Of a DNA stretch of 64,000 nucleotides, positions 292 through 47,274 are shown in pieces. Position 1 is the first letter of the stretch. The number at the start of each line of letters is the position of its first letter. Source of the DNA: Pseudoduganella dura (lineage in GTDB: Bacteria; Pseudomonadota; Gammaproteobacteria; Burkholderiales; Burkholderiaceae_D); NCBI RefSeq assembly GCF_009727155.1, contig NZ_WNWM01000002.1, positions 2,356,001 through 2,420,000 on the forward strand, given 5' to 3'. The notes below the pieces were generated by a model. That model did no database searches. It saw only the letters and a list, made by a program, of their open reading frames with translations, and was not told where the DNA came from. A program made the position numbers and the translations under genes.

Positions 292-3042
292 TTAATTATT
301 GTGCTCGCGCCCATCGGCTGCGTCGTTCAAAGCACGGAATCCCTGGTTAGAATACGTCATCTCATTACTATCATTTTCAGCAGAAAGGCCGTCGCGAATT
401 TTCAGGGCAAACTCATCTCCATTACCTAGCCTGATCCTGTATTCATCGGTTCCTTTTTCACATTCGAAATGCGCCCGCCCATGCGCGTCAGTCAGGCCAA
501 TCTTCATCTCAACCCCATTTTTGTACAAAACGTATGGTGTGTTGGCATAGGCTTCGCCTAGTGCGGAATGCGACTGGAGAAGGATGCTGATGCTTTCCCG
601 ATGGGAATCTTCCAATTTCTCCTCAGCTTTAGCCTGTCGCGGCATTGACTGCAAGTTATTTTTTGGTCCAAAAGTTTCCAAATTGCAGTGAAATAGTGTC
701 GGGGAAGGAGAGAATACCTGCACTGTGTCGCTAATCTCGATTAGCGAATTAGAGCCGTGCAAACGGATACCTTTCTTGCCATGTAGTTCAATCCAATCCG
801 AATCGCTGATGAACCGTAGAACTTTTTGCGCCAGAATCTCCATTTCGTCGCTATCTGCTCTAATTTCTACTTTTCCCGAAGCCGCGACCAATTTCATCCC
901 CATTTTTTGAACTAGCATTAACATTCCCTGCCGTACGCTGGCAAATAATCCCCCTTGTGCTGCAATTGAGACATTCGCTCCAGAAGTTATCGCTAGCTGT
1001 TCACCGCTGGCGATGTGTACCGACTGCGCAGCCGTAGCGACAACGCCAGCGGTACTGGACAACACAATGTCAGGTGCAGTCAGTTCCGGAAGATCGCTAC
1101 CAGTGCCTTCGATGGCATCATTCTGAATTCCCAAGACTGTTGCCACATCCATCTGTACATTCCCACCTGTCGGAGCATAGTGGTGCGCAAACCTTGCCAG
1201 CGCCTCATGATGCTCGTGTGCCTTCTTCAAAAGCTTCGTGGTTTCATTCATAGACTTAACTGCGCCGACGGCCTGTGGCCGCGATTCAGTCGTCAGTAGA
1301 AAACCTTCAGCTGCACGCACCACACCATGGCCATCTGAACGTAATTCAAATCCCTCACCACGCTTTTCTTTATGGCCTCCGTTACTCTCCAGCCGATGTA
1401 TCTGCCCCAGCGACAGCTGGCTATGCAAGTGATCACTCCGCAACTGCGCCTGGATTTCTCCCTTTGTATCGTCCAGAACGAGCTGGTTCCCGCGTATTCC
1501 TTCAAGCTCACGCGAGCGCAACCCGGAGAGCGCCCGTTGGCTCGACAGCTCCCAGGGCACGGCGTGCTCGGCGTTGTAGACGACACCCGTAACAATCGGC
1601 CTGTCGGTGTTCTCGCCGAGGAACTGCACGACAACTTCCTGCCCCACCCGCGGTAGCCCGATCTGGCCGAACTGTTTGCCGGCCATCGGCATCGCCACCC
1701 TCACCCACGCCGAGCTGTTCTCATTGCGTTTGCCCTGGCGGTCCCAGTGGAACTGGATCGTTACGCGGCCGTGTCCGTCAGTGTGGATCTCTTCGCCCTG
1801 CGGGCCGGTAACGATGGCCGTCTGCAGCCCGGGTGCCGGTGGTGGCTCGCTATGGAAATGCCGCCCCGGCCGCCATGGAATGGTCTTGCGCAGGCAGGTG
1901 AATTCATTGTTGTAGTACGACGGCTCGCGCTTCGCGGAATTGAGGTTGTTCCCCGCCGAATGGCGGACGGCGACGATCAGGTATTCGCGTTTGCCGATCG
2001 GTTCGCTGATCATCGCCTTCCGGAAAGGCCACGGCATGGAACCGCTGTGGTGATCCGCCAGCACGAAGCTGCGGCCGGGCATTGCGCAACGGTCGTTACC
2101 GGCCGTCTCGAAGGTCTGCGCCATCTGGTCCGCTTCTTCCATCCGGCGCTTGGCCAGGAGCTCGCCATCCTGCCAGTCACGGTAGCCGTAGGCGCCCAGG
2201 TTTTCGTAGACGTCATACGGCGGTGCGTCGCCCTGCCGGTTCATCGATTCGGACATCACCGCCTGCGGCATCGGTTTTTTGAAATCGAAACTGCCTAACG
2301 CCATTGTGGCGGAGCCGACGCGGCGCACCGCCTGCCACTGGTGAATGCCATCGCCCTCGGCCGAACCGGCGAAGGAACGGTAAGGAATCGTGCCCGGTTC
2401 CACTTCGCGCGTGCCGCATGCATCGATGGAATCGGCGATCGTGCTGTCGTCCGACAGCCATAGGGTGTGTCCGTCGCCACGATGTTCGTACCAGTAATGC
2501 AGGCCCGCTGCTTCCCAACGGCGGTGCAGGTGGTTGTAGTCGGTTTCGTTGTATTGGTTCATGCAGGTGACTTTCGGATCCTCCCCCCGCATGCGCAGCT
2601 TCCAGTCATGCTGCTTGTAATGCGCGAAGGTCATTTCCGTCATCTCCAGCACGCTGCGGGCAAGGAACGAAACGCAGTCCTTGCGCAGCTTCGCGAACGC
2701 CAGCCATGGCTCCAGCACGGCGTGGTAGTAGACGAATCCGCCGTCCGTCTTCACATAACGGAACTCGGTGATGTAGCCGTTGAAATGCCGCTCGGTACCG
2801 TTATCGCGTACCAGCGAGACCGTCATCATCTTGCCGATCAGCGATTTCAGCGGGATCGATACGTCATCGGACAATAATTCCACTTCAAAGCGAAAACCGC
2901 TCGACAGTTCTTCCTGAGCGTTGAACGTGTTGACGATGAGCGCGGCGTCGGGTCCATCCCCGTTCGGGAATTGCGAACGCAACAGCCTGCCCGTCTGCTG
3001 CAGGCGATCCAGCGAGGCAAAGCTCGGTTGCGGCACGTTCAT
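292..3042 (-). CDS. vgrG: T6SS spike protein VgrG with C-terminal extension (TssI)
   Basis: 916-residue VgrG, the trimeric spike of the type VI secretion system. The gp27/gp5-like base and OB-fold occupy about residues 20-520 (DGHGRVTIQFHWDRQG and GLPRVGQEVVVQFLGE are typical). A repetitive beta region of the DUF2345 type covers about 610-780. A small domain at about 840-895 (YVLYKNGVEMKIGLTDAHGR) resembles the transthyretin-like adaptor that holds effectors. The start ATG overlaps the tssG stop by 4 bases (ATGA), and the PLD-like gene follows after 14 bases. The first two thirds are GC-rich like the genome, but from about position 1330 down to 292 the DNA is clearly AT-richer, so the tail and its cargo look exchanged as a unit. 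Confidence 0.95.
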   Translation of the reverse strand: MNVPQPSFASLDRLQQTGRLLRSQFPNGDGPDAALIVNTFNAQEELSSGFRFEVELLSDDVSIPLKSLIGKMMTVSLVRDNGTERHFNGYITEFRYVKTDGGFVYYHAVLEPWLAFAKLRKDCVSFLARSVLEMTEMTFAHYKQHDWKLRMRGEDPKVTCMNQYNETDYNHLHRRWEAAGLHYWYEHRGDGHTLWLSDDSTIADSIDACGTREVEPGTIPYRSFAGSAEGDGIHQWQAVRRVGSATMALGSFDFKKPMPQAVMSESMNRQGDAPPYDVYENLGAYGYRDWQDGELLAKRRMEEADQMAQTFETAGNDRCAMPGRSFVLADHHSGSMPWPFRKAMISEPIGKREYLIVAVRHSAGNNLNSAKREPSYYNNEFTCLRKTIPWRPGRHFHSEPPPAPGLQTAIVTGPQGEEIHTDGHGRVTIQFHWDRQGKRNENSSAWVRVAMPMAGKQFGQIGLPRVGQEVVVQFLGENTDRPIVTGVVYNAEHAVPWELSSQRALSGLRSRELEGIRGNQLVLDDTKGEIQAQLRSDHLHSQLSLGQIHRLESNGGHKEKRGEGFELRSDGHGVVRAAEGFLLTTESRPQAVGAVKSMNETTKLLKKAHEHHEALARFAHHYAPTGGNVQMDVATVLGIQNDAIEGTGSDLPELTAPDIVLSSTAGVVATAAQSVHIASGEQLAITSGANVSIAAQGGLFASVRQGMLMLVQKMGMKLVAASGKVEIRADSDEMEILAQKVLRFISDSDWIELHGKKGIRLHGSNSLIEISDTVQVFSPSPTLFHCNLETFGPKNNLQSMPRQAKAEEKLEDSHRESISILLQSHSALGEAYANTPYVLYKNGVEMKIGLTDAHGRAHFECEKGTDEYRIRLGNGDEFALKIRDGLSAENDSNEMTYSNQGFRALNDAADGREHNN

Positions 3043-4082
3043 TGGATGTCTCCGTAGAGTTTGGGTTGCAACAGGTAGCGGATTTCACGCTGGCGGCTTT
3101 TGCCTGGTGCGTCGGCGATAAACGTGTCCCACCCCAGCCGGCATCCCTCGCCCGGCTTGGCGGTCAGGACCAGGGGCCGGATACAGTCGGGGCCGGGAAG
3201 CAGGCAAATCTCGTACTCGACCAGTATCTCGGGCATTGCAAGTGCAAGCAGCCTGGACAGCACGCGCGAGCCCTCCCGGCGCGGAAGCAGCCAGTTGTAC
3301 TGCGCGCGGCCCAGCGGTCCGATGACGATGCGCACCCGCTGGTCGATCCGCCACTGCCGCCGGCCCAATGTGGCGCCGGTACCGAGCTTCGGATTCTCCG
3401 TGCCCAGCGTACTGCGCCGCGAGGGATGCAGTGTTTGCCAGCATCCGACCATCGATTCGACTTGTACAGGCAGACCCAGCTCTCCTGCCAGGATGCACTC
3501 CAGGGTGGCCGCAGATGCGGGGCGTGTCCGAAGAAGCCCCGCATACCATGCATCCGTGTCGTCGTCGGACTCATCCCTGCCGCCAATTGCCTGCAACCGT
3601 CCGCGCCAGCCGTCACGGCCTTGTATGTCGAGCGAAACCTCCGGCCGGTTCAACGCCCATGCCTTCCAGAACAACGCCACCATGCGCGTCGACAGGAAGT
3701 CCAGGAACGCGCGTGCACCGGGTTCCCCTGCTGCGGCCGCATGGGCGCAGCGATCGGTGTCGTGCAACGGCAGCGTGCCGGCAGCTCCGAGCAGGCCGAA
3801 GCAGGTCGGTGTCATCACGATGCGAGGAATAGCTACCGTTTCTTCCGAATGATCATCCGTACGCAGCGCCTCGATCTCACTGGCGGGAAATGCCATCGAC
3901 ATGCTGTTCTCGAAGCGCAGTGCTTTTGTCAGCGCCTCGTCACCGGGCACGCCGCGCCGCGCGCACCAGCGCAGCAGCAGCGTTACTGCGGGCAGTAACC
4001 CGAAACGCCAGGGTTCGGCGAGCAGCCGCGAAATTACGCCGCCTTTCACGCCAGGCTCGCGTTGCCGCTGCGACGTTTGCAT
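3039..4082 (-). CDS. tssG: T6SS baseplate subunit TssG
   Basis: 347-residue TssG (ImpH/VasB family), which forms the TssF2G heterotrimer of the T6SS baseplate wedge in the cytoplasm. The N-terminal block ISRLLAEPWRFGLLPAVTLL, the later GLLGAAGTLPLH motif and the C-terminal segment GWDTFI support the family. Length is normal. The 5' end overlaps tssF by 37 bases and the 3' end overlaps vgrG by 4 bases, so tssF-tssG-vgrG is one translationally coupled unit. A second ATG follows after 16 codons, but the family conservation begins close to the annotated start. Confidence 0.92.
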   Translation of the reverse strand: MQTSQRQREPGVKGGVISRLLAEPWRFGLLPAVTLLLRWCARRGVPGDEALTKALRFENSMSMAFPASEIEALRTDDHSEETVAIPRIVMTPTCFGLLGAAGTLPLHDTDRCAHAAAAGEPGARAFLDFLSTRMVALFWKAWALNRPEVSLDIQGRDGWRGRLQAIGGRDESDDDTDAWYAGLLRTRPASAATLECILAGELGLPVQVESMVGCWQTLHPSRRSTLGTENPKLGTGATLGRRQWRIDQRVRIVIGPLGRAQYNWLLPRREGSRVLSRLLALAMPEILVEYEICLLPGPDCIRPLVLTAKPGEGCRLGWDTFIADAPGKSRQREIRYLLQPKLYGDIQ

Positions 4083-5863
4083 CTCAGGATCTCCCGTTGG
4101 TCACGCTGCGACAGCAGCACCAGTTCGACGTAGTTATTGACTTGCACATACAGCGCGAGGAAGTGGTCCATTACTTGCGCGAACAGGTGGATGCCGCTGC
4201 CGACAAATGCTTCTTCATCCACGGTGATGTGCACTTCGAGGCCTTTCACCAGCGACGAGCCGCGCGTGTGCTTGATCCACGCCGTGGTGATCGTGTGGTC
4301 GAGATTGACGATACCGTTGATCATCCGGGTCGTCACCGGGGAGGCGGGCAGGTCGTGCAGCAAGAGCACGTCCTTGAATTTCTGCAGCCCGCCGGGCACC
4401 AGCGCATGGTGATTCAGTGTCAAGTGCGAGATCAGCCGCCAGTGGTTCTGCCCTGCGGCGAACCGGAGCGGCAGGCTGGGCTTGGTCAGCAGACGTGCCA
4501 TCAGGCCGCCTGTTGCGCCCGGCACTAACAGGTCGCCGGCGGACGTCCCGTAGGGCAACTGGTGCGGGAGTTCGCGGTTGGTGCATGTCACGTCGATCGA
4601 CAGCGTGCTGCGCTCCACCTCCAGCGCCGCGGCATTGATATCTACCAGCGTCATCCGTTTTTCATGTCCCGGGCTGATCACGGCCAGCACGTCGTCGTGA
4701 CGCAGCACCCAATGCCGGCCGCCTCCTGCCCCGCCGTGCCCACGTGCATACAGCGGGGTGTATTCCACCGTTTCCGCGTTGCTTACCTGCTGGCGCACGG
4801 CTTCGACCGAATACACCTCGTAGGCTTGCGGCCGCGGGCCGTCGGCAACCAGAGAATATTCCGATGCCATGCCGGTAACGGCGACTGGCCTGGCCGGCTG
4901 CCTGAAAAGATTGACGACCGTCGTGCAGAACAGGCGCAGGTTCGACGGCTGCAGCGTGCGCAGCATGCGGGCAGTATTGCTGTCCGGTGCCATGCGCGAC
5001 AGTGCAAGATGGAGCGTCACGCTTTGGCTATCTGGTGGCACGAATGCGCGCAGCGCCGCCAGGTCGATGTCGAAGAAGCGGAACTTGTCGGGAAAGCAGA
5101 AGTATTCAGTCAGGATGCGCCACGCACGGTGCGAACGGTCGCCGAATGGAATCAGCGCATCGTCATCCGCGCAGCCAGCCGGAGCCAGCGGCACTGCCGG
5201 CAACGGCAGCCACTTGCCGCCCAGTCCTTCGACAAACGCCCCGCTTACATGCATGAACAGCGTATCGTGCAGCGCGGCGCAGAACGACGGATCGCCATCG
5301 GCCAGTACACGCAGCGTATCGAGCAGTACTTGAGGCAATGTAAGCCGGGACGACACGGAAGCGATCGTGATCGACAGCGATGCTGTCGCATCCGCAGCCA
5401 GCCTGGTGCCGGAAGGTGCCCGAATCAGCGGCTCGAATTTCGCCGACGTGATTGCCAGGGGCGCCAGCGTAACGTCTGTCGCCATGCAGAACTTGCATCG
5501 AGTGCCTTGTACGGGCTGTGTCTCGAGCAGCGTCACGCGCTCGATTACCCGCACGCCGGACATCTCCTGCAGCCCCTTGTCGGGCAGGCCGAAATGGATG
5601 ACCGCGCACGACGGAAATGGACGCAGGTAGTGCGGGAACAGCGATCCCAGCAGCGCCTCGGTGAATTGTGGAAAGCCATCGTCGACCCGCTTCATGATAC
5701 GGGCCGCCAGCAACGCGAGGGCCTGGATCAAGCGCTCGACATGGGAATCGCCATCGCCAATGCGCAGCCTGTCAGCCACACGGGGGAACCTGGCGGCGAA
5801 CTCGGCGGCGTAGGCGCGCAATACCACCAGTTCGCGTTCGAAATACGGGAGCAAGTCTTTCAT
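4046..5863 (-). CDS. tssF: T6SS baseplate subunit TssF
   Basis: TssF (ImpG/VasA family), about 605 residues, the second component of the T6SS baseplate wedge with TssG. The start chosen begins MKDLLPYFERELVVLRAYAAE, which aligns with the usual TssF N-terminus (a tyrosine, then RELxxLR, then the AAEFAARFP stretch). Upstream in-frame ATGs at 5893 and 5917 are possible; 5893 has a GGAAAG about 9 bases ahead of it but falls inside the inverted repeat at 5883-5908. TssE, which normally precedes TssF, is absent; instead tssK diverges. Confidence 0.93.
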   Translation of the reverse strand: MKDLLPYFERELVVLRAYAAEFAARFPRVADRLRIGDGDSHVERLIQALALLAARIMKRVDDGFPQFTEALLGSLFPHYLRPFPSCAVIHFGLPDKGLQEMSGVRVIERVTLLETQPVQGTRCKFCMATDVTLAPLAITSAKFEPLIRAPSGTRLAADATASLSITIASVSSRLTLPQVLLDTLRVLADGDPSFCAALHDTLFMHVSGAFVEGLGGKWLPLPAVPLAPAGCADDDALIPFGDRSHRAWRILTEYFCFPDKFRFFDIDLAALRAFVPPDSQSVTLHLALSRMAPDSNTARMLRTLQPSNLRLFCTTVVNLFRQPARPVAVTGMASEYSLVADGPRPQAYEVYSVEAVRQQVSNAETVEYTPLYARGHGGAGGGRHWVLRHDDVLAVISPGHEKRMTLVDINAAALEVERSTLSIDVTCTNRELPHQLPYGTSAGDLLVPGATGGLMARLLTKPSLPLRFAAGQNHWRLISHLTLNHHALVPGGLQKFKDVLLLHDLPASPVTTRMINGIVNLDHTITTAWIKHTRGSSLVKGLEVHITVDEEAFVGSGIHLFAQVMDHFLALYVQVNNYVELVLLSQRDQREILRCKRRSGNASLA

Positions 5864-5882
5864 GATCGGTGCCGTAGTGTCG

Positions 5883-5908
5883 GGAAAGCTCATTATCGTG
5901 AGCTTTCC
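5883..5908. promoter_or_regulatory. 10-bp inverted repeat between tssF and tssK
   Basis: GGAAAGCTCA, six bases (TTATCG), TGAGCTTTCC: a perfect dyad in the 125-base gap between the divergent tssF and tssK genes. Its position suggests an operator for a regulator of the T6SS unit. A short RNA hairpin in the tssF leader is the alternative. No regulator gene lies next to it in the window. Confidence 0.45.
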
Positions 5909-5988
5909 AAACGGCAATTTGAGTCAGATCAATAGAATGCTACCGAGAAACAATCATGCTTGCTTCATTCATTCCTGGAAGGAGAACC

Positions 5989-7323
5989 ATGAGCATTCAT
6001 TCGAAAGTACTGTGGGGCGAAGGCCTCACCATCGGGCCGCAGCAAATGCAGCGGCTGGACCTGTACCACGAGACCCGGCTGCAGCAGTTGGTCCTGACCA
6101 TCAGTCCCAGCCTGTGGGGGGTACGCAAGGCGGAATGGAACGAGGATATGCTCGCCAATAACATGCTAACGGCCGAGGCATTGTCGTTGCTGTTCCAGGA
6201 CGGCGAGATTTACGATGCGCCGATTTCCGACCCGGCACCGCCGTCCGTCAATCTTTCGACGCTCGATGCCGAGGAGCAGGTATTCACGTTCTACGCGGCG
6301 CTGCCGCTGTTGAACCACCATGGAGGAAACCTTGAAAGTTCCGGCCGCTACAGGATGAAGGATGTCGAGACCGCCGACCTGTTCACCAGCGAGCTGTCGC
6401 TCGGTGTCGATTACCTGACGAAGAATGTGACGCTCGTGCCGCACACCGAGGCGCGCACCGCGTACCTCTCCTTCCCCGTCATCCGCATCAAGCGCTCCCC
6501 CACCGGCGGCTTCGAACTCGACCCCATCTTCATCCCGCCCTCCGTCACGCTGGCCACGGCCGCAGGCCTGCCCGGCATGCTCGATGCCCTGCTGGCCAAG
6601 CTCAATGCCAAGATCGCGGCGCTGTACGAGCGCCATCGCCAGAATGGCCGCCAGGCGTTCGAGGTCCATACGGGCGACGCGTCGTCGTTCTGGATGCTCA
6701 ACGTGATCTGCACGGCGGCGGCGCCGCTCACGCATTGCGCGCGCTATCGCCAGCACCATCCCGAGTACGTGTTCGACAAGCTGATGGCGCTAGCCGGCGG
6801 CCTGATGACGTTCTCGCCGAAGTACACGCTGGCCGACCTGCCGTCGTACCAGCACGACGATCCGGGCCCTGCATTCCAGAGGCTGGACGACATGATCCGC
6901 GACCTGATCGACACGGTGATCTCGTCGCGCTACTTCACGCTGCCGCTGACGAACGATCCGGCGCGCACCTCGCTGCATTACGGCGTGCTGGATCCGGCGC
7001 GCGTGGAGCGCCGCACCGAACTGTGCCTGGCGGTCAGCGCGGACATGCCGGCACTGGAACTGGTGGCCGCCGTGCCGCTGCGCTTCAAGATCGGTTCGCC
7101 GGACGACGTGGATCGCCTGATCAGCAGTGCGATGCCGGGCGTGGAACTGGTGCACATGGCGCAGGTGCCCGGCGAGGTGCCGGTGCGGCCGAACACGTAT
7201 TACTTCTCGCTCACCGCGAAAGGCACCCTGTATGACAACATGCTGAAGGCGCAGACGATCGCGATCTATGCGCCGTCGGGCATGAAGGGCATGCGGATGG
7301 AGCTGTTCGGCATCGCGCCGTAG
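5989..7323 (+). CDS. tssK: T6SS baseplate subunit TssK
   Basis: About 444 residues, TssK (ImpJ/VasE family), the trimeric adaptor linking the T6SS baseplate wedge to the membrane complex (TssJLM). The start is the ATG at 5989, preceded by GGAAGGAGAACC, giving MSIHSKVLWGEGLTIGPQQM, the conserved TssK N-terminus (VxWxEGxxxxPQHxQ type). An upstream in-frame ATG at 5956 lacks a good binding site. The C-terminal domain, which contacts TssL/TssM in known systems, ends with FGIAP. It diverges from tssF and is followed after 12 bases by a convergent, unrelated hydrolase gene. Confidence 0.94.
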   Translation: MSIHSKVLWGEGLTIGPQQMQRLDLYHETRLQQLVLTISPSLWGVRKAEWNEDMLANNMLTAEALSLLFQDGEIYDAPISDPAPPSVNLSTLDAEEQVFTFYAALPLLNHHGGNLESSGRYRMKDVETADLFTSELSLGVDYLTKNVTLVPHTEARTAYLSFPVIRIKRSPTGGFELDPIFIPPSVTLATAAGLPGMLDALLAKLNAKIAALYERHRQNGRQAFEVHTGDASSFWMLNVICTAAAPLTHCARYRQHHPEYVFDKLMALAGGLMTFSPKYTLADLPSYQHDDPGPAFQRLDDMIRDLIDTVISSRYFTLPLTNDPARTSLHYGVLDPARVERRTELCLAVSADMPALELVAAVPLRFKIGSPDDVDRLISSAMPGVELVHMAQVPGEVPVRPNTYYFSLTAKGTLYDNMLKAQTIAIYAPSGMKGMRMELFGIAP

Positions 7324-8292: not shown

Positions 8293-10764
8293 TCAGAACT
8301 TGAAGCTGGCGCGCGCGTAGTAGTAGCCGCCGTTGATGCCGAACGGCGAGAACGACGGGTATTTCGTCACGCCCGCGTTGTCCAGGTTCGCGCGGTACAC
8401 GGCCATCAGTTCGCTGTTCACCTCGTCCGGATACTCGTTGAACAGGTTGTTGGCCCCGGCCGACAGCGTCCAGTTCGGGTTCAGCTTGTAGCTCACTTCA
8501 AGATCGGTGATCGCCGTGAAGCCGATCTCGTTCTTGTAGTAGGTGCCGCCGTTCGGCGATTCCCACGTGAAGGCCTTGCCGTACAGCGCCTCGCGCAGGT
8601 TGACCGTCCAGGCACCCGAGCGCCACAGTGCGCCGAGGTTGACGCGGGTCTTCGGCGACGCGGTCTCCAGGTTCGAGATCGCCGTGCGGTCCAGCAGCGT
8701 TTGCGGCTGCAGCTGGGTTGGCGCCTGGTTGATCTTCGTTACCCGTACCTGGTTCCAGTTGGCCGCCAGCGACCAGTCCACCCGGCCGTACTGGCCGTAG
8801 TTGCTGTTCAGCGTGGCCACCAGCTCCAGCCCGCGCGAGCGGGTGTTGACGGCGTTGGTGAAGATGTTGATGCCCGTCTCGCTGACCGTCGGGTCGAGGA
8901 TGTTGCCGTTGGCGAGGATCGCCGAGACCACGGCCGGCGAGTTGACGGCGCCGCCGGAACCGTAGACCGAACCCGAACCCACGATGCGGTCGCGGATCTT
9001 GATCTGGTAGGCGTCCAGCGTGACGGAGACGTTGTTCGCCGGGTTCAGCACGATGCCGGCCGACAGGTTGGTCGACGCTTCCGGCTTCAGACCGTCGATG
9101 CCGACCAGCTTCGCGCCGGCCGAATTCGGCGCCAGCTGCACGAAGGCGCTGGTGGGGCCGACGTTGGTGGCCGAGTAGTACGATTCGGCCAGCGTCGGTG
9201 CGCGGAAACCGTTCGAGAACGTGCCGCGCAGCGCGACGGTCGGCGTGAAGTCGTAGCGGCTGGTCAGCTTGCCCACCTTGGCGTTGCCGAAGTCGCTGAA
9301 GTGTTCATAGCGCGCCGCCAGGTCGACCGTCAGGCCGGCGATCGGGAACGTGATGAAGTTCGCGTAGATCGCCTTGTTGTTGCGGTCATGCTTGCCGGCG
9401 TCCGTCAGCGAGAAGCCGGGGTACGACTGCGAGCCTTCCTTGTAGCGCGAGAACTCGTCGCCAGCCTGGATCTCGTACTCGTCCACGCGGTGCTCGAGGC
9501 CCATCGCGAACGTCGACGGCTTGGCCCAGCCCATCTCGATCTCGCGGGAGACGTCGAAGTTGTTGGTCCACTGGCTGGCGATGAAGGTACCGGCATGGAA
9601 CACGGTGGGCGTGAAGCCGGTGTCGTTGTACAGCGAAACGTTGGCCGAATCCACCACGCCGATTTCCGCCTTGTCGCGGCCGTACGTGCTCGAAACTTCC
9701 CAGTTCCATGCGCCGCCGAACTTGCCGCGCGCGCCGGCCGTGATCGCGTAGTCGGTTTCCTTCATCGTTTCCTTCGGGCTGAAGCCCAGCGGATAGACGG
9801 CCGGCAGCCGGTTCGGCATGCGGTAGTTCTCGTAGGCCCGCGCTTCCTTCTTGCCCCAGGTGGCGAAGGCATACAGCGACGTGTCGTCGTCGATGTCGTA
9901 GCCCGCGTTGGCCGCCAGCGTGTTCAGGTGGTACTGGGCATCGCCGGCGATCTTGTTCAGGTGCGGGTAGCCGGGGATCTGCAGCAGCGGCATGCTGGCG
10001 ATGTTCTGCGGCGCCGTCACGCGCGGGTCGATGTTGCCGCGGTCGCTGTAGCCGTGGTAGCGCGATTCGCCGGTGAGACTGAGGAAGCCCTTGTCGGTCA
10101 GGCGGAAGCCGATGTTCGCCGTGCCGTCGCCCGTGTGGCCGCCGCCGTCGACATAGGCGCCGCCGTTGACGTTGCCGGACAGGCCCTGGTTGTTCGATTT
10201 CAGGATGATGTTGACCACGCCGGCGATGGCGTCGGTGCCGTACTGGGCGGCGGCACCATCCTGCAGCACTTCGATGTGGTCGATCGCGGCCACCGGGATG
10301 TAGTTCAGGTCGGCCGCCGCGCCGCCCTGGTACGGGCCGCCCAGCACGGCCAGGTTGGCGGTGCCGTGGCGGCGCTTGCCGTTCACCAGCACCAGCGTGT
10401 TGTTCGGCGACAGGCCGCGCAGCCGGGCCGACAGCGTGAGGTTGGCCGTGTCGCCGCCGAAGGCCTGTGCGGTGAACGACGGGATGTTCTGGGCGATCGC
10501 CTGGATCAGGTCCGGCTGGCCGGTGCGCTGCAGCGAGGCCGCGTCCAGCACCTGGATCGGCGAGGCGCTGTTTTCCGCTTTCAGGCCGCTGGCGCGGGTG
10601 CCGGTCACGATCACGGCCCCCATCGAAACTGGTGCGCCGGCGGCGCCGGCCATGTTTTCCGCTTGCGGTTCGGGCTCCGGTGCGCCGACCGGATCGGCGG
10701 CGAACGATAATCCGGTGTGCAGCAGCATGGCGGCGGCGCCCGACTTGATGATGGCCTTGTGCAT
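8293..10764 (-). CDS. TonB-dependent outer-membrane receptor
   Basis: 823-residue receptor with a signal peptide (about 1-22), a plug domain at about 60-180 (GAVIVTGTRASG, VNGKRRHGTANL, IDHIEVLQDGAAAQYGTDAI) and a beta-barrel ending in aromatic FKF, as needed for BAM insertion. It imports an unidentified large or scarce ligand using TonB energy. The start ATG has AAAGGA at a proper distance. It lies downstream of and in the same direction as the amine oxidase/cytochrome c/RidA unit, 128 bases after ridA. A hairpin in that gap may partly separate the units. The neighbourhood suggests, but does not prove, import of an amine or peptide-related compound. Confidence 0.92.
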   Translation of the reverse strand: MHKAIIKSGAAAMLLHTGLSFAADPVGAPEPEPQAENMAGAAGAPVSMGAVIVTGTRASGLKAENSASPIQVLDAASLQRTGQPDLIQAIAQNIPSFTAQAFGGDTANLTLSARLRGLSPNNTLVLVNGKRRHGTANLAVLGGPYQGGAAADLNYIPVAAIDHIEVLQDGAAAQYGTDAIAGVVNIILKSNNQGLSGNVNGGAYVDGGGHTGDGTANIGFRLTDKGFLSLTGESRYHGYSDRGNIDPRVTAPQNIASMPLLQIPGYPHLNKIAGDAQYHLNTLAANAGYDIDDDTSLYAFATWGKKEARAYENYRMPNRLPAVYPLGFSPKETMKETDYAITAGARGKFGGAWNWEVSSTYGRDKAEIGVVDSANVSLYNDTGFTPTVFHAGTFIASQWTNNFDVSREIEMGWAKPSTFAMGLEHRVDEYEIQAGDEFSRYKEGSQSYPGFSLTDAGKHDRNNKAIYANFITFPIAGLTVDLAARYEHFSDFGNAKVGKLTSRYDFTPTVALRGTFSNGFRAPTLAESYYSATNVGPTSAFVQLAPNSAGAKLVGIDGLKPEASTNLSAGIVLNPANNVSVTLDAYQIKIRDRIVGSGSVYGSGGAVNSPAVVSAILANGNILDPTVSETGINIFTNAVNTRSRGLELVATLNSNYGQYGRVDWSLAANWNQVRVTKINQAPTQLQPQTLLDRTAISNLETASPKTRVNLGALWRSGAWTVNLREALYGKAFTWESPNGGTYYKNEIGFTAITDLEVSYKLNPNWTLSAGANNLFNEYPDEVNSELMAVYRANLDNAGVTKYPSFSPFGINGGYYYARASFKF

Positions 10765-10892: not shown

Positions 10893-11387
10893 TTATTTCT
10901 TGGCGGCGACCACCTCGATCTCGACCAGCCAGCCGGTGGAGTTCAACCCGGCCACCTGCATCACGGCGCGCGCCGGCAGGTTCGGCTGCGTGCCGCCGAA
11001 GAACTGCGTGTAGCCTTCCATGAAGCCCTTGGTGTCCGCGCGGCCGCCCTTCGACGGATCGCCCACGAGGAACACCTGCATCTTGACCACGTCGCCCATC
11101 GTCAGGTTCATGCCCTTCAGGATCTCCTCGATCTTCTTCAGCACGCCCACGGTCTGCGTTTTCGTATCGCCGTAGGCGGCGATCGAGTCCGGGCTGGCGG
11201 CCTTGTCGATCATCGGCGGCACCTGGCCGCTGATGAAGTGGATCGTGGCGCTGGCCGGCAGCGTGACGGCCTGCGCGATCGGGAAATCCGAGCCGGGAAT
11301 CTTGTGGCGCACGATTTCCTGCGCGCTGGCCGAAGTGGTGGCGACGGCGGCGGCCATCAACAGGGCGGCGGCGATGTGCTGTTTCAT
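10893..11387 (-). CDS. Exported RidA-family imine deaminase
   Basis: 164 residues: a signal peptide (about 1-22, cleaving after ASA) followed by a RidA/YjgF/Rid domain. RidA proteins hydrolyse reactive enamines and imines; the key arginine is at residue 140 in NLPAR and the family glutamate is near 156 (LVEIE). Most RidA proteins are cytoplasmic, so a signal peptide is notable. It follows the cytochrome c gene by 12 bases and the flavin amine oxidase, whose imine product is a natural substrate. The binding site GAGAGG precedes the ATG. Function is inferred from family and operon; substrate is unknown. Confidence 0.85.
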   Translation of the reverse strand: MKQHIAAALLMAAAVATTSASAQEIVRHKIPGSDFPIAQAVTLPASATIHFISGQVPPMIDKAASPDSIAAYGDTKTQTVGVLKKIEEILKGMNLTMGDVVKMQVFLVGDPSKGGRADTKGFMEGYTQFFGGTQPNLPARAVMQVAGLNSTGWLVEIEVVAAKK

Positions 11388-11399
11388 GAAGCCTCTCTT

Positions 11400-11801
11400 T
11401 CAGTGTTTGTTGGACAGTTGTCCGGCCGAGAAAACCTCGGCCGAAATTTCGGTGCGCAGTGCGGAGACATCGCCTTCGGCAATGGCGGGCGACTGGTTGC
11501 CCCAGCTGGAGCGCGCATAGGTCAGCACGGCGGCGATGTCGCCATCGTTCAGGCTCTGCGAAAAGTCCGGCATGCCGCCGCGCCCTTTCAACAGCACGGT
11601 GGCCGGTTCCCTGGCCGGCCCCTGCACCAGCGAATTGCCGGCCAGCGCGGGAAACGCGCCCGGAATGCCCTTGCCGCTGGCCTGGTGGCAGGCCGCGCAA
11701 TTCTTCTGGTAGACGGCCTTGCCGTCGGCGGCCGCCGCGTGCAGCGGCGTGGCGGCCACGAAGCCGACCAATGCCATCAAGGCTGAAACATGGTGCGTCA
11801 T
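11400..11801 (-). CDS. Periplasmic c-type cytochrome
   Basis: 133-residue monoheme class I cytochrome c. A signal peptide (about 1-23) is followed by the heme motif CAACH (35-39), and Met77 in GRGGMPDF is the likely axial ligand. The 5' end overlaps the amine oxidase stop by 4 bases (ATGA) and ridA follows after 12 bases. The obvious role is to take electrons from the Tat-exported flavoprotein encoded upstream and pass them to the respiratory chain, replacing oxygen as direct acceptor; this coupling is inferred from the gene order. Confidence 0.9.
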   Translation of the reverse strand: MTHHVSALMALVGFVAATPLHAAAADGKAVYQKNCAACHQASGKGIPGAFPALAGNSLVQGPAREPATVLLKGRGGMPDFSQSLNDGDIAAVLTYARSSWGNQSPAIAEGDVSALRTEISAEVFSAGQLSNKH

Positions 11802-13387
11802 GCCATCGCCCTTTCATGGATGCGCGCCATCTGCTGCCATGCCGATTCGATCGCGCCGGCCTGCCAGCCCGTCAGGTAGGACAGGTGTTCGCCGGCCAGC
11901 AGCACGCGGCCTTCGCCTTCGAGCAGCGTCGGGTAGGCGTTCTTGCGGCTGTCGTCGTTCCACTCGGCCCAGCCGCCCAGGTTGTACTGCACGCGGTGCC
12001 AGGCGACCGAAAAGGCGTTGTCGAACGAATCGCGGTAGGCGGGGAAGATCTTTTCGCCGGCGGCCAGCGCGAACTCGGCACGCTCGGCCGGGCTCAGGCC
12101 GCTCACTTCGATCGCCGCGCTCTGGTAGTTGTAGTAGCCGAGGATCACTCCCTTCTTCTTTTGCCAGCTCGTCGACGGCAGAGAGATCGTGTTGATGCCT
12201 TTCATGTCGGTCAGCACGTGGCCGCCGTAGATGTGTTCATCCTCTTCCCAGAAGCGGCGCTTCATCTGCAGGCCGATCTTGCCCACCGGCGCATAGGCCA
12301 CCGACTTGATCGCGGCCTTGAAGGCGTCCGAGAAATCGGTATCGACCATGCGCAGCGTGGACAGCGGCATCGTGCACAGGCAGAAATCGGCCGTGACGGT
12401 GCTTTCCTTGCCGCTCTTCGTATCCTTGAAGGCGATCGTCACGCTGTTCTCGCCGTGGCTGATCTTTTGCACTTCCGCGTTGTAGCGGATGTGGCGGCCC
12501 ACGCGCTTTTCGAATGCCTTGGCGATCGAATCCATGCCGTTCACCGGCTGGAACATCGTGTTCTGCATCGGGTAATCCTGCACCGCGCTGTAGATCTTGC
12601 CCACGCCGGAGGCGAGCAGGTCGTGGAAGGCCAGCGGATCGGAGAACGAACCCGGTCCCGGGTTCATGCCGGCACCGGGATTGACGGCGAAGCCGCGGCC
12701 GCTGCGGCCCTTGTAGCTGAGGTCGCCCGCTTCCAGGTGGCCCTCGTGCTTCAGGTAGTCGAGCAGCGCTCGCTGGTCGTCGCCGGTCAGCTGCTTGTCG
12801 AGGCCGTTGCCCTGCACCGTCTTGGCCAGCAGCTCGGCCACGTGGCCGCGCAGGTCGGCCTTGATCTGCGCCGGGCGCAGCCGCTGGTTCGACAGCGGGC
12901 CGCCATTCTCTAGGTAGACGAACGAATGGTCGTTATCGTTGACCATCACTTCCAGCGGCACGTCGAACTGGCGCGTGTAGTGCAGCGTGGACTGGTGGTG
13001 CAGCGGAATGCGCCACGGCCCGTGGTTGATGTACTGCCCTTTTTCAAACGCGCAGCGCTGCGTTTCGCCGCCCAGCTCCGTGAGCTCGAAACCGTTGCGC
13101 GCGGTCTGGCAGCGGCCGCCGGCAAAGCCGCGCGCTTCCAGCACCTGCACGCGGTAGCCCAGCTTGGCCATCTCGTAAGCGGCCGTCATGCCGGCCAGGC
13201 CGGCGCCGAGGATCACCACCGACTTGCCCTTGCCGCTGCCGCTCAGCGCCGGCGGGCCGGACATCGTCGACCCGATGCCCATGCCCCAGGCATTCATCGC
13301 GTTCAGCAGCAGCCCGGTCCCGCCCACCGCGGCGGCACGGTACAGGAAATCGCGCCGCGTTACCGCTTTCATCAATCCACTCGTCAT
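11798..13387 (-). CDS. Tat-exported flavin amine/L-amino-acid oxidase
   Basis: About 529 residues from the ATG at 13387, giving MTSGLMKAVTRRDFLYR: a twin-arginine signal (RR 11-12) and hydrophobic stretch to about residue 35. The FAD site is GAGLAG (61-66) with Glu84 at the end of strand 2 and GGRC after it; the C-terminal motif LAGEHLSYLTGWQAGAIESAW is diagnostic of the monoamine/L-amino-acid oxidase family. It oxidises an amine or amino acid to an imine. It starts an overlapping operon with cytochrome c and RidA. A longer reading frame up to 13501 exists but would put 38 residues in front of the Tat signal. Substrate unknown. Confidence 0.88.
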   Translation of the reverse strand: MTSGLMKAVTRRDFLYRAAAVGGTGLLLNAMNAWGMGIGSTMSGPPALSGSGKGKSVVILGAGLAGMTAAYEMAKLGYRVQVLEARGFAGGRCQTARNGFELTELGGETQRCAFEKGQYINHGPWRIPLHHQSTLHYTRQFDVPLEVMVNDNDHSFVYLENGGPLSNQRLRPAQIKADLRGHVAELLAKTVQGNGLDKQLTGDDQRALLDYLKHEGHLEAGDLSYKGRSGRGFAVNPGAGMNPGPGSFSDPLAFHDLLASGVGKIYSAVQDYPMQNTMFQPVNGMDSIAKAFEKRVGRHIRYNAEVQKISHGENSVTIAFKDTKSGKESTVTADFCLCTMPLSTLRMVDTDFSDAFKAAIKSVAYAPVGKIGLQMKRRFWEEDEHIYGGHVLTDMKGINTISLPSTSWQKKKGVILGYYNYQSAAIEVSGLSPAERAEFALAAGEKIFPAYRDSFDNAFSVAWHRVQYNLGGWAEWNDDSRKNAYPTLLEGEGRVLLAGEHLSYLTGWQAGAIESAWQQMARIHERAMA

Positions 13388-13849
13388 CGCAGCCCCTTGT
13401 GTTGGTGAACTTGCTTGCACATAGGTATCTAGCAATCGGTGTGCCACGGCTTGTCCGGAAAGCACTCTTTTCGGCGAGGCGAATGAAGTCGTTTCGGCCA
13501 CGGCGCCTGGCGTGGCATGGCGGCGCGTGCCGCGGAGGGCGGGCCGACATGGGCGTCACACTTTGTTCGATGGGTGCGAAAGCGCGACAGTCCGTTCGGC
13601 GCCGGGCCATGCACCAGCACGACGCAGCGGGGCCATCGCGCATTCCTTGATGTAGCGCAGCAAATGTCCTGGGGCCAGGCCCCAGGTCAAAGACTGTGCA
13701 AGATCAAAGAATGGCCTGGGGTCAGACGCCAGGTCAAAGTCTGTGCAAGATCAAAGATGTCCACCGGGCGGAAGCCGGGCTGTCCGGCGCCAGGCCAAAA
13801 AAAAGCGCGCCGGGTGGCGCGCTGAAAATACGACGAGGTTGAAAAAAGG
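13388..13849. other. 462-base intergenic region with a tandem repeat
   Basis: Between the amine oxidase start and the transposase-like gene. The oxidase promoter must be in the right-hand part next to 13388, but no clear -35/-10 pair stands out. The left portion holds the 47-bp tandem repeat described separately. Open frames here lack coding character and binding sites; no gene is supported. Confidence 0.6.
13668..13761. repeat. Two tandem copies of a 47-bp unit with palindromic head
   Basis: Each unit begins with a 19-bp near-palindrome (CCTGGGGCCAGGCCCCAGG at 13668-13686; CCTGGGGTCAGACGCCAGG at 13715-13733) followed by a conserved tail of the form TCAAAGnCTGTGCAAGATCA. A 29-base stretch (13682-13710 and 13729-13757) is the same in both apart from one base. 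It looks REP-like, but its place 90 bases from the transposase-like gene also allows a transposase binding array. Confidence 0.8.
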
Positions 13850-15634
13850 TCAGCCGACGAACCCGGCGATGATGCGTTCGAAGCTGGGGTACTGGCCGGC
13901 CGCCTGCGGGCGGCGGACCGGCGCTTCGGGCTGCGGGAAGGGGCGCGCCGTGGCGGTGCTGCGCTGGCAGGCATGGAAACGCATCGGCGCGGCCGGGTCG
14001 GGCAGGTAGACGCCATCGCCGATGATCCCGTCGTGCTCGCCATTGTCGTCGCATGCCACGCGCACCACCCAGCGGCCGCGCTGGCGCGCCCGTTCGAACC
14101 AGCGCTCTTCCACCGCCTTGGCGCAGGTGTACAGCTGGCCGTTGACGCTGATGCCCTCCTCGGTCACCAGCGCATCCTGCAGCGGCAGCAGCGCGCAGCG
14201 CACCAGGTCTTCGGCGTATTGCTTCAGAGCGGTGCCGCGCTCGCGCATGCCCCAGTCCCACAGTTGCAATGGCGCCGGGCCCTTGCCGTCGCCCTGCAGG
14301 TTGTGCTCGAGGATGGCGTCGATGACGAGGCGGCGGAACTGGCCGATGTCGAGCGCGCCATCGAGCGCACCCAGTTCGGGCGCGGTGGAGGACGGCAGCG
14401 CGGGCGCGTCGGCGCGCAGCAGGCCGAAACGGCGCTCCAGCGCGGTTCGCGCCGGCACCTCGGCCGGAATGCCCGTCACGCAGCGTATGCCGAAATTGTC
14501 CTGCAATGCGCGGCCGCCGTCGCCGCCGGCCAGCGCGCCGGGCACCAGCAGCCGGTCGGGCAGGTGGCGGCAGGGCCAGTCCTGCGCGGCGATCGCGCGG
14601 CCGTGCCGCAGCGCGAGGCGCGGCTTGTCCGCCGCGCAGTTGGCGAGCGCCGTCAGCGCATGCTGCCAGGCGGGTGCCTCCAGGCTCACGTGAAAGCCCG
14701 TGACCATGCCGGAAAACATGTCGCTGACGAGGTAGACGACGGGCCGGCCGGCCAGCCGGCGGCGGTCGCCGCCGGCCAGCAGCTGCACGTCCGCGCGCAC
14801 GGCGGCCACCTGGAAGGCGGCACCCGGCCGCCCTTCCGCATCCACCAGCGCATGCGGCGCCAGGGGCAGAGGGCGCGGTGCCGGGCGCAGGATGCGTCCC
14901 TGGTCGAGCCAGTAGCTGAACTGGCCGAAGCTCGGCACGGCATCGCTGGCGGCGGCGCGCACCACGTGCATCGTGTCGGGCACGACGCGGCGTTCGCAGA
15001 AGAATTCGCGCAGCATCGCTTCATACGCGCCGCGGCGCGAAAAACGCGTGCCGGTATAGGTGGCCGCGGCAACGCGGAACACGCGGCGCATCGGCTCGTC
15101 GACATTCACGCCCGGTGGCGCGCCTTCGCGGCGCGGCCGGCCGCGCTTGATGCCGGCGGTGGAGGCGCGTGTCTTGCCCCGCGCGCCGCTGTTCGAATAG
15201 TCCGGCAGCAGCGCGTTCGGCGTCTGCCCGCGCTGCCAGTAGCGGCGCAGGTAACGGTAGATCGTGGGGTGCGATACGCCGTGGCGTGCCGTGTAGTCGG
15301 CGATCATCTGGCCGCGCCGGCGCGATTCGTAGATGCCGGGTTCGTCGCCCGTGAGCTCGGCGACGATGGCCCAGGCCCGCTCGCGCAGCGCGAGGTGGCC
15401 CGGCTTGATCGCCTCCTGGTCCGCCACGACCAGCCAGGGATCGTCCGCCAGGCGGCGCGCGCGGCCCGAAGCCAGGTCGGCTTCCAGTTCCGGCAGCCGC
15501 GCCGGCTCCACGTCGCAGCCCTTGCCGTCCATGTCGAACAGCCAGGCCATCGTGCGCGCCGGGTCGATCCACAGCACCCGCATCGTGCGGCGCCGTGGCG
15601 CGCCATATTGAAGTAAGTCGTTTCGCAGTAACAT
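13850..15634 (-). CDS. TnsB/TniA-type transposase homologue with degenerate catalytic site
   Basis: 594 residues resembling TnsB/TniA/MuA-type transposases. The helix-turn-helix region (about 105-150: GVSHPTIYRYLRRYWQRG, then LLPDYSNSGARGK) and the core strand VYLVSDMFSGMVTGFHVS (300-317) fit TnsB well. In TnsB the first catalytic Asp sits in a W-x-x-D-A-T motif before that strand; here the matching stretch reads FQVAAVRADVQ, with Ala near 277. The second Asp (usually P-x-x-L-x-x-D-x-G) is replaced by PDRLLVPGALAG; Glu400 of the third motif (ALERRF) remains. The frame is intact with a strong site (GAGGAGGGCGG) before the ATG. No TnsC/TniB, TnsA or TniQ partner is near, so a domesticated or dead protein is likely. 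Confidence 0.75.
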   Translation of the reverse strand: MLLRNDLLQYGAPRRRTMRVLWIDPARTMAWLFDMDGKGCDVEPARLPELEADLASGRARRLADDPWLVVADQEAIKPGHLALRERAWAIVAELTGDEPGIYESRRRGQMIADYTARHGVSHPTIYRYLRRYWQRGQTPNALLPDYSNSGARGKTRASTAGIKRGRPRREGAPPGVNVDEPMRRVFRVAAATYTGTRFSRRGAYEAMLREFFCERRVVPDTMHVVRAAASDAVPSFGQFSYWLDQGRILRPAPRPLPLAPHALVDAEGRPGAAFQVAAVRADVQLLAGGDRRRLAGRPVVYLVSDMFSGMVTGFHVSLEAPAWQHALTALANCAADKPRLALRHGRAIAAQDWPCRHLPDRLLVPGALAGGDGGRALQDNFGIRCVTGIPAEVPARTALERRFGLLRADAPALPSSTAPELGALDGALDIGQFRRLVIDAILEHNLQGDGKGPAPLQLWDWGMRERGTALKQYAEDLVRCALLPLQDALVTEEGISVNGQLYTCAKAVEERWFERARQRGRWVVRVACDDNGEHDGIIGDGVYLPDPAAPMRFHACQRSTATARPFPQPEAPVRRPQAAGQYPSFERIIAGFVG

Positions 15635-15869
15635 CCGCCCTCCTCGGTGGAGAGTAATAATGCAGATGTCTATGCAAGTATCGGGCCAGCCTCTGCCGAG
15701 GTCATTGGGCCCTGAAACACCCTTCGGCGGGCGCGATGGGCATTATCGTGGTGCAGGCACGGCACCGTGTCCGTGCACCAATCTTACTAATGGCTTACAG
15801 GGCGTGTCCATAATGAACATGGGCCGCCCATGCGGGCGGCCCATCCGTGTCGGCGCCTGGCCGGTGCCC
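15635..15869. other. Intergenic region with two hairpins
   Basis: Two dyads are visible: TGGTGCA...TGCACCA around 15754-15785 with an inner CACGG/CCGTG stem, and ATGGGCCGCCC-ATGC-GGGCGGCCCAT (15819-15844). The second lies about 60 bases past the helicase stop and could help end that transcript, but there is no T-run. Near the transposase-like start, GTCTATGCAAGTATC (15668-15682) resembles part of the 47-bp repeat on the other side of that gene. Confidence 0.5.
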
Positions 15870-15918
15870 GCTTGGCGCTTGGCGCTTGGCGCTTGGCGCT
15901 TAGCGCTTAGCGCTTGGC
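15870..15918. repeat. Seven copies of a 7-bp tandem repeat across the helicase stop codon
   Basis: Units GCTTGGC or GCTTAGC repeat seven times. The helicase stop codon (15907-15909) lies in the sixth unit, so gain or loss of units could shift where the protein ends. On the coding strand the units read GCCAAGC/GCTAAGC. Confidence 0.9.
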
Positions 15919-47198: not shown

Positions 47199-47274
47199 AT
47201 TCGCATGATTCAATTGCATGATTCAGCTTGCATGAGTCCAATTCGCATGGGTCGGTTCGCATGGGTCAGTTCGC
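47199..47274. repeat. 14-bp tandem repeat filling the mksF-mksE junction
   Basis: About five units of 13-15 bases with the shared core TTCGCATGRKTCA, and a partial sixth. The mksF stop codon (47266-47268) lies inside the fifth unit. Each unit contains CATG, so on the coding strand several ATGs appear just ahead of the mksE start. Confidence 0.85.

Follow-up and report, generated by a model that had tools for sequence, protein, structure and literature searches.

The 64-kb stretch of the Pseudoduganella dura genome considered here (assembly GCF_009727155.1, contig NZ_WNWM01000002.1, positions 2,356,001–2,420,000; hereafter the window) carries a gene for a homologue of Tn7 TnsB and, directly downstream of it, an operon encoding an L-amino-acid-oxidase-like flavoprotein, a c-type cytochrome and a RidA-like protein; a gene for a TonB-dependent receptor comes next (Table 1). 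As a preliminary description of this DNA had reported, the TnsB-like gene is an intact frame with a ribosome binding site, GAGGAGGGCGG, ahead of its ATG, and its product can be aligned with TnsB.

The homology extends over most of the protein. A phmmer search matches it to Tn7 TnsB (PDB 7pik) with an E value of 1.9e-59, residues 19–556 align with E. coli TnsB, the predicted folds are the same, and a DNA-binding segment, LRRYWQRGQTPNALxPDYxNSGA, is near-identical in the two. The window protein is shorter at its C-terminus, with 594 residues compared with 703 in the 7pik chain; the match stops at chain residue 569 and the predicted model is disordered beyond approximately residue 562. Where TnsB has its catalytic Asp-Asp-Glu (DDE) triad, however, the window protein has Ala277 in the first column and Pro365 in the second, with only Glu400 retained, so that the triad reads APE, in agreement with the preliminary description. 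The gene is present as a single copy with conserved neighbours, rather than mobile, at several loci or between transposon ends as in Tn7, and no second TnsB match occurs in its own genome. A Pfam scan found no transposase domain in the window protein, nor in one real TnsB fragment, PF27135 being outside the Pfam set scanned; relatives of the window protein carry PF27135 as a precomputed annotation.

The loss of the catalytic aspartates is shared by a whole clade of relatives. Among 74 genomes sampled from the genus, 59 gave a match and 58 carry the clade gene, after exclusion of one (G004) whose match is TnsB-like only, at 29% identity. When 55 full-length clade members were aligned by MAFFT to eight real TnsBs of the same family, the DDE triad was found in all eight TnsBs and in none of the 55. 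Twenty distinct triads are found instead, the commonest being DNE (17 members) and APE (6). Seven rows retain the second Asp, each with Glu in the first column and with Ala or Gly in the third. With so many different triads, we conclude from the alignment that catalysis has been lost in several ways within the clade. Since the triad is missing from every aligned member, DNA cutting by the clade protein is very probably excluded. The reading of the window protein as catalytically dead stands, and the gene is not part of a decaying transposon.

These proteins nevertheless remain under purifying selection after the loss of catalysis. Invariant positions are numerous in the DNA-binding half, and in the group of five genomes that includes the window the mean pairwise ratio of nonsynonymous to synonymous substitution rates (dN/dS) is 0.146 across the gene as a whole, 0.117 when the DNA-binding half is taken by itself and 0.104 in the dead core; two further groups, of five and six genomes, have means of 0.21 to 0.38. 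To judge from the sequences, the dead core is maintained as a fold and no longer as an enzyme.

Relatives are found in Pseudoduganella, Duganella, Massilia, Rugamonas and Janthinobacterium. In the other genera of the family the matches span only residues ∼1–250 of the protein, in frames of 249–376 residues. A tree of the N-terminal half, built by a quick method, separates the 81 clade rows from the eight TnsBs, and groups the 26 short forms together on one side of a branch (81 in the Shimodaira–Hasegawa-like approximate likelihood-ratio test), so that the whole catalytic domain was perhaps lost once. Absences in the family searches, in which the best four candidates per genome were scored, are less sure than those in the genus. 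Among 300 genomes sampled from the order, no clade member was recognisable outside the family, and seven out-of-family genomes gave matches of 28–36% identity in frames of 403–818 residues, as expected of TnsBs; no relative was confirmed on a viral contig. Three genomes (G194, G301 and G339; loci L073/L084, L091/L085 and L088/L087 respectively) carry a pair of short TnsB-derived genes each; one member of the pair adjoins the oxidase operon and the other lies elsewhere without an oxidase.

Linkage to the oxidase is close. At a threshold of E ≤ 1e-150 the oxidase is present in 54 of the 74 genus genomes, and all 54 also have the clade gene, within ∼1.5 kb by the listed coordinates; in G007 the clade gene is split across two contigs and its 3′ part adjoins the oxidase. 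Outside the genus, the 11 genomes of the family sample whose oxidase has at least 71% identity all carry the short gene beside it (11/11), and 11 genomes with remoter oxidases (41–67% identity, 12 places) have no clade gene. Tn7 partners are lacking, as the preliminary description had observed for TnsC/TniB: neither a TnsA-like nor a TnsC/TniB-like cluster lies within ∼7 kb of any of 52 clade loci, whereas the real TnsB loci have a TnsA cluster in 8/8 cases and a TnsC/TniB cluster in 7/8. Because the triad is lost in 55/55, selection is purifying, synteny is conserved, the gene is single-copy and relatives keep only the DNA-binding half, the earlier proposal that this is a domesticated TnsB derivative and not a mobile element stands on the sequence evidence.

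Both the TnsB-like gene and the oxidase operon have a promoter of the sigma-54 type. We take TGGC-N7-TTGCW to be the sigma-54 −24/−12 box; it occurs at 48 of the 52 clade loci, no more than 330 nt ahead of the conserved N-terminal motif, compared with 2 of 658 other genes of the same loci. Of the four loci without a strict box, L062 and L114 are positive by a looser scan and L074 and L093 negative; the same looser scan finds no box at the real TnsB loci (0/8). When up to one mismatch is allowed, dyads of the TGCAC-N7-GTGCC type, which we presume to be NtrC-like, occur upstream of 23 of 48 clade genes as against 8 of 658 others. On the oxidase side, the sigma-54 box is present in 36/36 clade-linked promoters (26 with a full-length gene and 10 with a short one), and dyads with up to two mismatches in 18/36 compared with 111/658 others.

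Repeats of the form AAYAAAGTCTG, tandem and inverted, are common to the oxidase promoters. In the window they lie between the TnsB-like gene and the oxidase gene (13459–13568), where the predicted operator sites read AACAAAGT and GAATGAAGT; the distal core is the sole exact AA[TC]AAAGT in the 64 kb, and the inverted core at −43 is also found in L002–L008, L010 and L012. Counting sites in the 400 nt upstream that depart from [AG]AA[TC]AAAGT by no more than one base, we found at least one in all 36 clade-linked oxidase promoters and at least two in 30, compared with 52 and 1, respectively, of 659 upstream regions of other genes. Exact cores (AA[TC]AAAGT) number 59 in 10,800 nt of the 36 promoters and 7 in 1,036,505 nt elsewhere in the 52 loci. 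The layout is regular as well: 14 of 15 same-strand pairs less than 40 bp apart have a spacing of 19–21 bp, distal sites point one way in 38/39 cases, and proximal sites are mostly opposite (41/58). Genomes with the short gene only have the same layout, and the DNA-binding half alone therefore seems, from this comparison, enough to maintain it. Attempts to refine the operator iteratively as a position weight matrix ended in AT-rich noise and were dropped for the fixed-core counts.

Oxidase promoters without the clade gene provide the control. Ten of 12 such places were fetched (G083 and G285 were left out); three have one site with at most one mismatch, none has two, and none has an exact core. 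The TGGC-N7-TTGC box is nevertheless present in 6 of these 10, including five of the seven nearest, so that sigma-54 control of the oxidase looks older than the TnsB-type sites, which go with the gene. Could the gene and the operon simply be co-inherited, with the AAYAAAGT sites serving another regulator? Inheritance as a block would yield full co-occurrence equally well. We consider this improbable, however, given that the gene–oxidase pair has no fewer than three chromosomal settings (genus members have it behind a DEAD-box helicase gene, and two more settings occur elsewhere), that the core and spacing of the sites agree with those of real Tn7-like ends, and that end-type sites in the host promoter are tied to the presence of the gene (36/36, against 0/10 with two sites or an exact core). 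The clade gene's own upstream region is at background, with at least one site in 10 of 50 and at least two in 2, and thus gives no sign of autoregulation through AAYAAAGT-type sites in these 50 regions.

The preliminary description had tentatively placed the protein's action elsewhere, on a 47-bp tandem repeat beyond its stop codon and on an upstream 15-mer, GTCTATGCAAGTATC (15668–15682), described as resembling the tail of the repeat. The repeat exists as described, and one copy contains CAAAGTCTGT, which agrees with the operator consensus at nine bases (AAAGTCTGT), possibly by chance. A genome search nevertheless confines it to this place, with two copies here and one three-mismatch match to its 21-base core, and it was not seen within 350 nt after the stop in L002–L012. 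The 15-mer overlaps, on the opposite strand, the sigma-54 box TGGCCCGATACTTGCA, a promoter element that precedes the TnsB-like gene at nearly all clade loci. We have accordingly rejected the repeat as an operator and the 15-mer as a copy of it, and regard action of the protein on this pair of sites as very unlikely: of the earlier proposal, the idea of a domesticated DNA-binding protein is supported and the choice of sites is wrong.

The putative operators resemble the ends of real Tn7-like elements. Two such elements of the family (L077 and L079), each preceded by a gene that we take from its C-terminus to be glmS, start with arrays of AATAAAGT[CT][CT]GCCAC and AATAAAGTCTGAC at 20–21-bp spacing; the same scan found no similar array at the other six real TnsB loci within the fetched stretch. 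A genome-wide search of 30 genomes for the exact tandem pair, with the reversed pattern as control, gave matches in 13 genomes and 0 respectively. The oxidase promoter is the sole match in G001, G052, G057 and G058 and one of two in G067. Matches away from oxidase promoters resemble Tn7-like end arrays where inspected (the P. dura genome, G264 and G042), and end arrays follow glmS in the P. dura genome (G000) and G042. At Tn7 itself, the right end has four partly overlapping 22-bp TnsB sites and the left end spaced sites, according to PMC11406308, and PMC13370975 describes binding of end sites by two N-terminal DNA-binding domains of TnsB, DBD1 and DBD2, and end pairing with IHF-bent DNA in a related system.

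Individual arrays differ in their surroundings. In the P. dura genome, L198 7114–7330 (C2 ∼3069128) has AATAAAGT repeats 20 bp apart directly after glmS, adjoining genes that by eye appear restriction-modification-like or otherwise accessory, and L199 6725–9425 (C2 ∼5950725) has three tandem AAYAAAGT sites and one inverted site 2.7 kb on, an arrangement that resembles a small element bounded by Tn7-like ends but lacking its own transposase. In G264, L200 9199–9330 contains back-to-back AATAAAGT arrays in both orientations, with no glmS recognised there. The presence of same-core arrays in the P. dura genome and its relatives, together with the conservation of the end-binding domains, would also fit a defensive role, in which the dead TnsB occupies Tn7-like ends and blocks incoming elements, the promoter sites being secondary. 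Such a role is distinctly unlikely in view of the set distances of the sites from the oxidase sigma-54 box, the tight linkage to the oxidase and the sigma-54 box of the clade gene.

The reading we favour, with a probability of roughly three in four, is that a dead Tn7-family TnsB has been exapted as a host regulator of the oxidase operon, acting through operators that resemble transposon ends. The sequences themselves establish the homology, the lost catalytic residues, the selection, the linkage, the promoter boxes and the confinement of the operators to genomes with the gene, whereas binding, NtrC control, looping and the sign of regulation are inferred. The protein retains the N-terminal end-binding domains of TnsB and would be expressed from its sigma-54-type promoter, probably under NtrC and hence most likely when nitrogen is short. 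It would bind the AAYAAAGTCTG sites between the enhancer region and the oxidase sigma-54 box, often a distal pair ∼20 bp apart followed by inverted proximal sites, and bending or looping of the promoter DNA, as by TnsB at transposon ends, would set the output of the operon. The operon products would presumably carry out extracytoplasmic amino-acid oxidation and, with an imine-handling RidA-like protein, release ammonia, which from an exported oxidase would fit nitrogen limitation.

Within this reading the sign of the regulation could go either way. A repressor that silences the oxidase promoter by covering the −24 box or looping over it would need the same protein and operators, and is a serious possibility, if not the one we prefer: the proximal sites lie right next to the −24 box, at about −43 and −22, sigma-54 boxes on both genes would allow a brake to produce a delayed feed-forward loop, and TnsB represses the tns promoter at the right end of Tn7. 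Some genomes should, however, be able to do without a gene that acts only as a brake, and yet every oxidase-bearing genome of the genus has it (54/54); for this reason we lean slightly towards an architectural co-activator. More tentatively, transposase and ends may have been co-opted as a pair, the dead TnsB synapsing miniature inward-facing end sites into a loop like that of paired ends and so placing the enhancer against the sigma-54 polymerase, as a nitrogen-responsive switch; on that tentative model, sister genera would manage with the DNA-binding half alone.

Several observations weigh against a regulator of the oxidase. TnsB lacks an AAA+ domain and cannot alone activate the sigma-54 polymerase. 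The window's own operators are worn, with one exact core only, and the oxidase NtrC dyads are weak, with 4/36 having at most one mismatch. Of 11 oxidase-bearing genomes tested, only 5 have the exact tandem pair at the oxidase promoter, and these five had been chosen beforehand for it; in G000, G091, G117, G194, G206 and G301 that promoter lacks the exact pair. Because the motif came initially from inspection of these same promoters by eye, and because the genomes are related to one another, the site counts are to be read as enrichments and not as independent probabilities. Finally, the clade gene occurs without a recognisable oxidase in 4 of the 58 genus genomes (G005, G020, G036 and G054), and the short gene is kept without a recognised oxidase in at least 12 genomes (10 in g12 and 2 in g19); in these genomes another role must exist or have replaced control of the oxidase. 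A contig end was considered as the cause in G005 and rejected, ∼11 kb being present on that side. Across 16 loci of 20 kb from genomes with the gene and no oxidase, a search for other targets found one exact core in all. In the g12 genomes (L066–L068, L075, L094, L095 and L115) the short gene is mostly beside what by eye is a phasin-like gene.

Table 1. Features of the TnsB-like gene, the oxidase operon and their promoters (window coordinates)
Feature	Position	Strand	Remarks
TnsB-like protein, catalytically dead	13850–15634	−	594 residues; A277, P365 and E400 at the DDE columns
Codons of A277, P365 and E400	14804–14806, 14540–14542, 14435–14437	−	respectively
Sigma-54-type −24/−12 box of TnsB-like gene	15673–15688	−	TGGCCCGATACTTGCA; match to TGGC-N7-TTGCW
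Putative NtrC-like dyad upstream of TnsB-like gene	15761–15777	−	TGCAC-N7-GTGCC
47-bp tandem repeat	13663–13757	+	2.0 copies, 89%; local to own genome
Weak NtrC-like dyad upstream of oxidase operators	13610–13626	−	TGCGTCGTGCTGGTGCA; weak class
Distal predicted TnsB-type operator	13554–13568	−	GAACAAAGTGTGACG; at −122 from box; core 13560–13567
Proximal inverted predicted TnsB-type operator	13481–13489	+	GAATGAAGT; one mismatch; at −43
Tentative third, degenerate site	13459–13472	−	GAAAAGAGTGCTTT; two mismatches
Sigma-54-type box of oxidase operon	13431–13446	−	TGGCACACCGATTGCT; motif match
L-amino-acid-oxidase-like flavoprotein	11798–13501	−	PF01593; nearest solved structure 2jae, L-amino acid oxidase, E 1.9e-86
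Likely oxidase start	13387	−	ATG (MTSGLMKAVTRRDFL), likely because the sigma-54 box falls within the longer frame; predicted twin-arginine-type leader
c-type cytochrome	11400–11801	−	PF13442/PF00034; synteny
RidA-like (Rid family) protein	10893–11387	−	PF01042; synteny
TonB-dependent receptor	8293–10764	−	PF00593/PF07715; synteny

Other features of the window include type VI secretion genes beside the operon (292–7323; TssF, TssG and a VasE/ImpJ-like protein among them), seven copies of the 7-bp unit CGCTTGG between the end of the DEAD-box gene and the TnsB-like gene promoter (15869–15918), and a tandem repeat of 14/29 bp (TTCGCATGAGTCAG-type, 2.7–5.4 copies) at 47200–47274.

Compared with Tn7 TnsB, with which it shares AATAAAGT-type sites ∼20 bp apart, the window gene is not set between transposon ends, has no adjacent TnsA or TnsC, and has a sigma-54 promoter and a tie to a metabolic operon. 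The TldR proteins arose from TnpB. Described in PMC13418256 as RNA-guided transcription factors, they are likewise a mobile-element nuclease without catalysis that regulates genes, whereas the window protein derives from a DDE transposase and would recognise DNA by protein domains. Ner/SfsB and antitoxin-derived regulators were also recruited from mobile elements into host control (PMC8987985), but were already small regulators, whereas here the transposase itself has apparently been reused with its end sites. CvkR (PMC9938897) is a MerR-type repressor of a type V-K CRISPR-associated transposon; it too is a transcription regulator linked to a Tn7-like system, but a separate one encoded with that system and not a transposase turned host regulator. 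No report of a TnsB-derived host regulator was recognised in the literature searched, most subscription journals being outside its scope.

If the favoured reading is correct, a bacterial DDE transposase now regulates transcription and continues to recognise its transposon-end sites, which have come to serve as operators in a host promoter. Its layers, namely loss of catalysis, loss of the entire catalytic domain in the sister genera, gain of operators in a host promoter, and related operons with neither gene nor sites, could be compared across dozens of genomes. Transposase domestication would thereby become directly testable, the question would arise of what end-binding oligomers do at promoters, and a testable function would be offered for genes now annotated as ‘Mu transposase C-terminal domain-containing protein’ or ‘hypothetical protein’.

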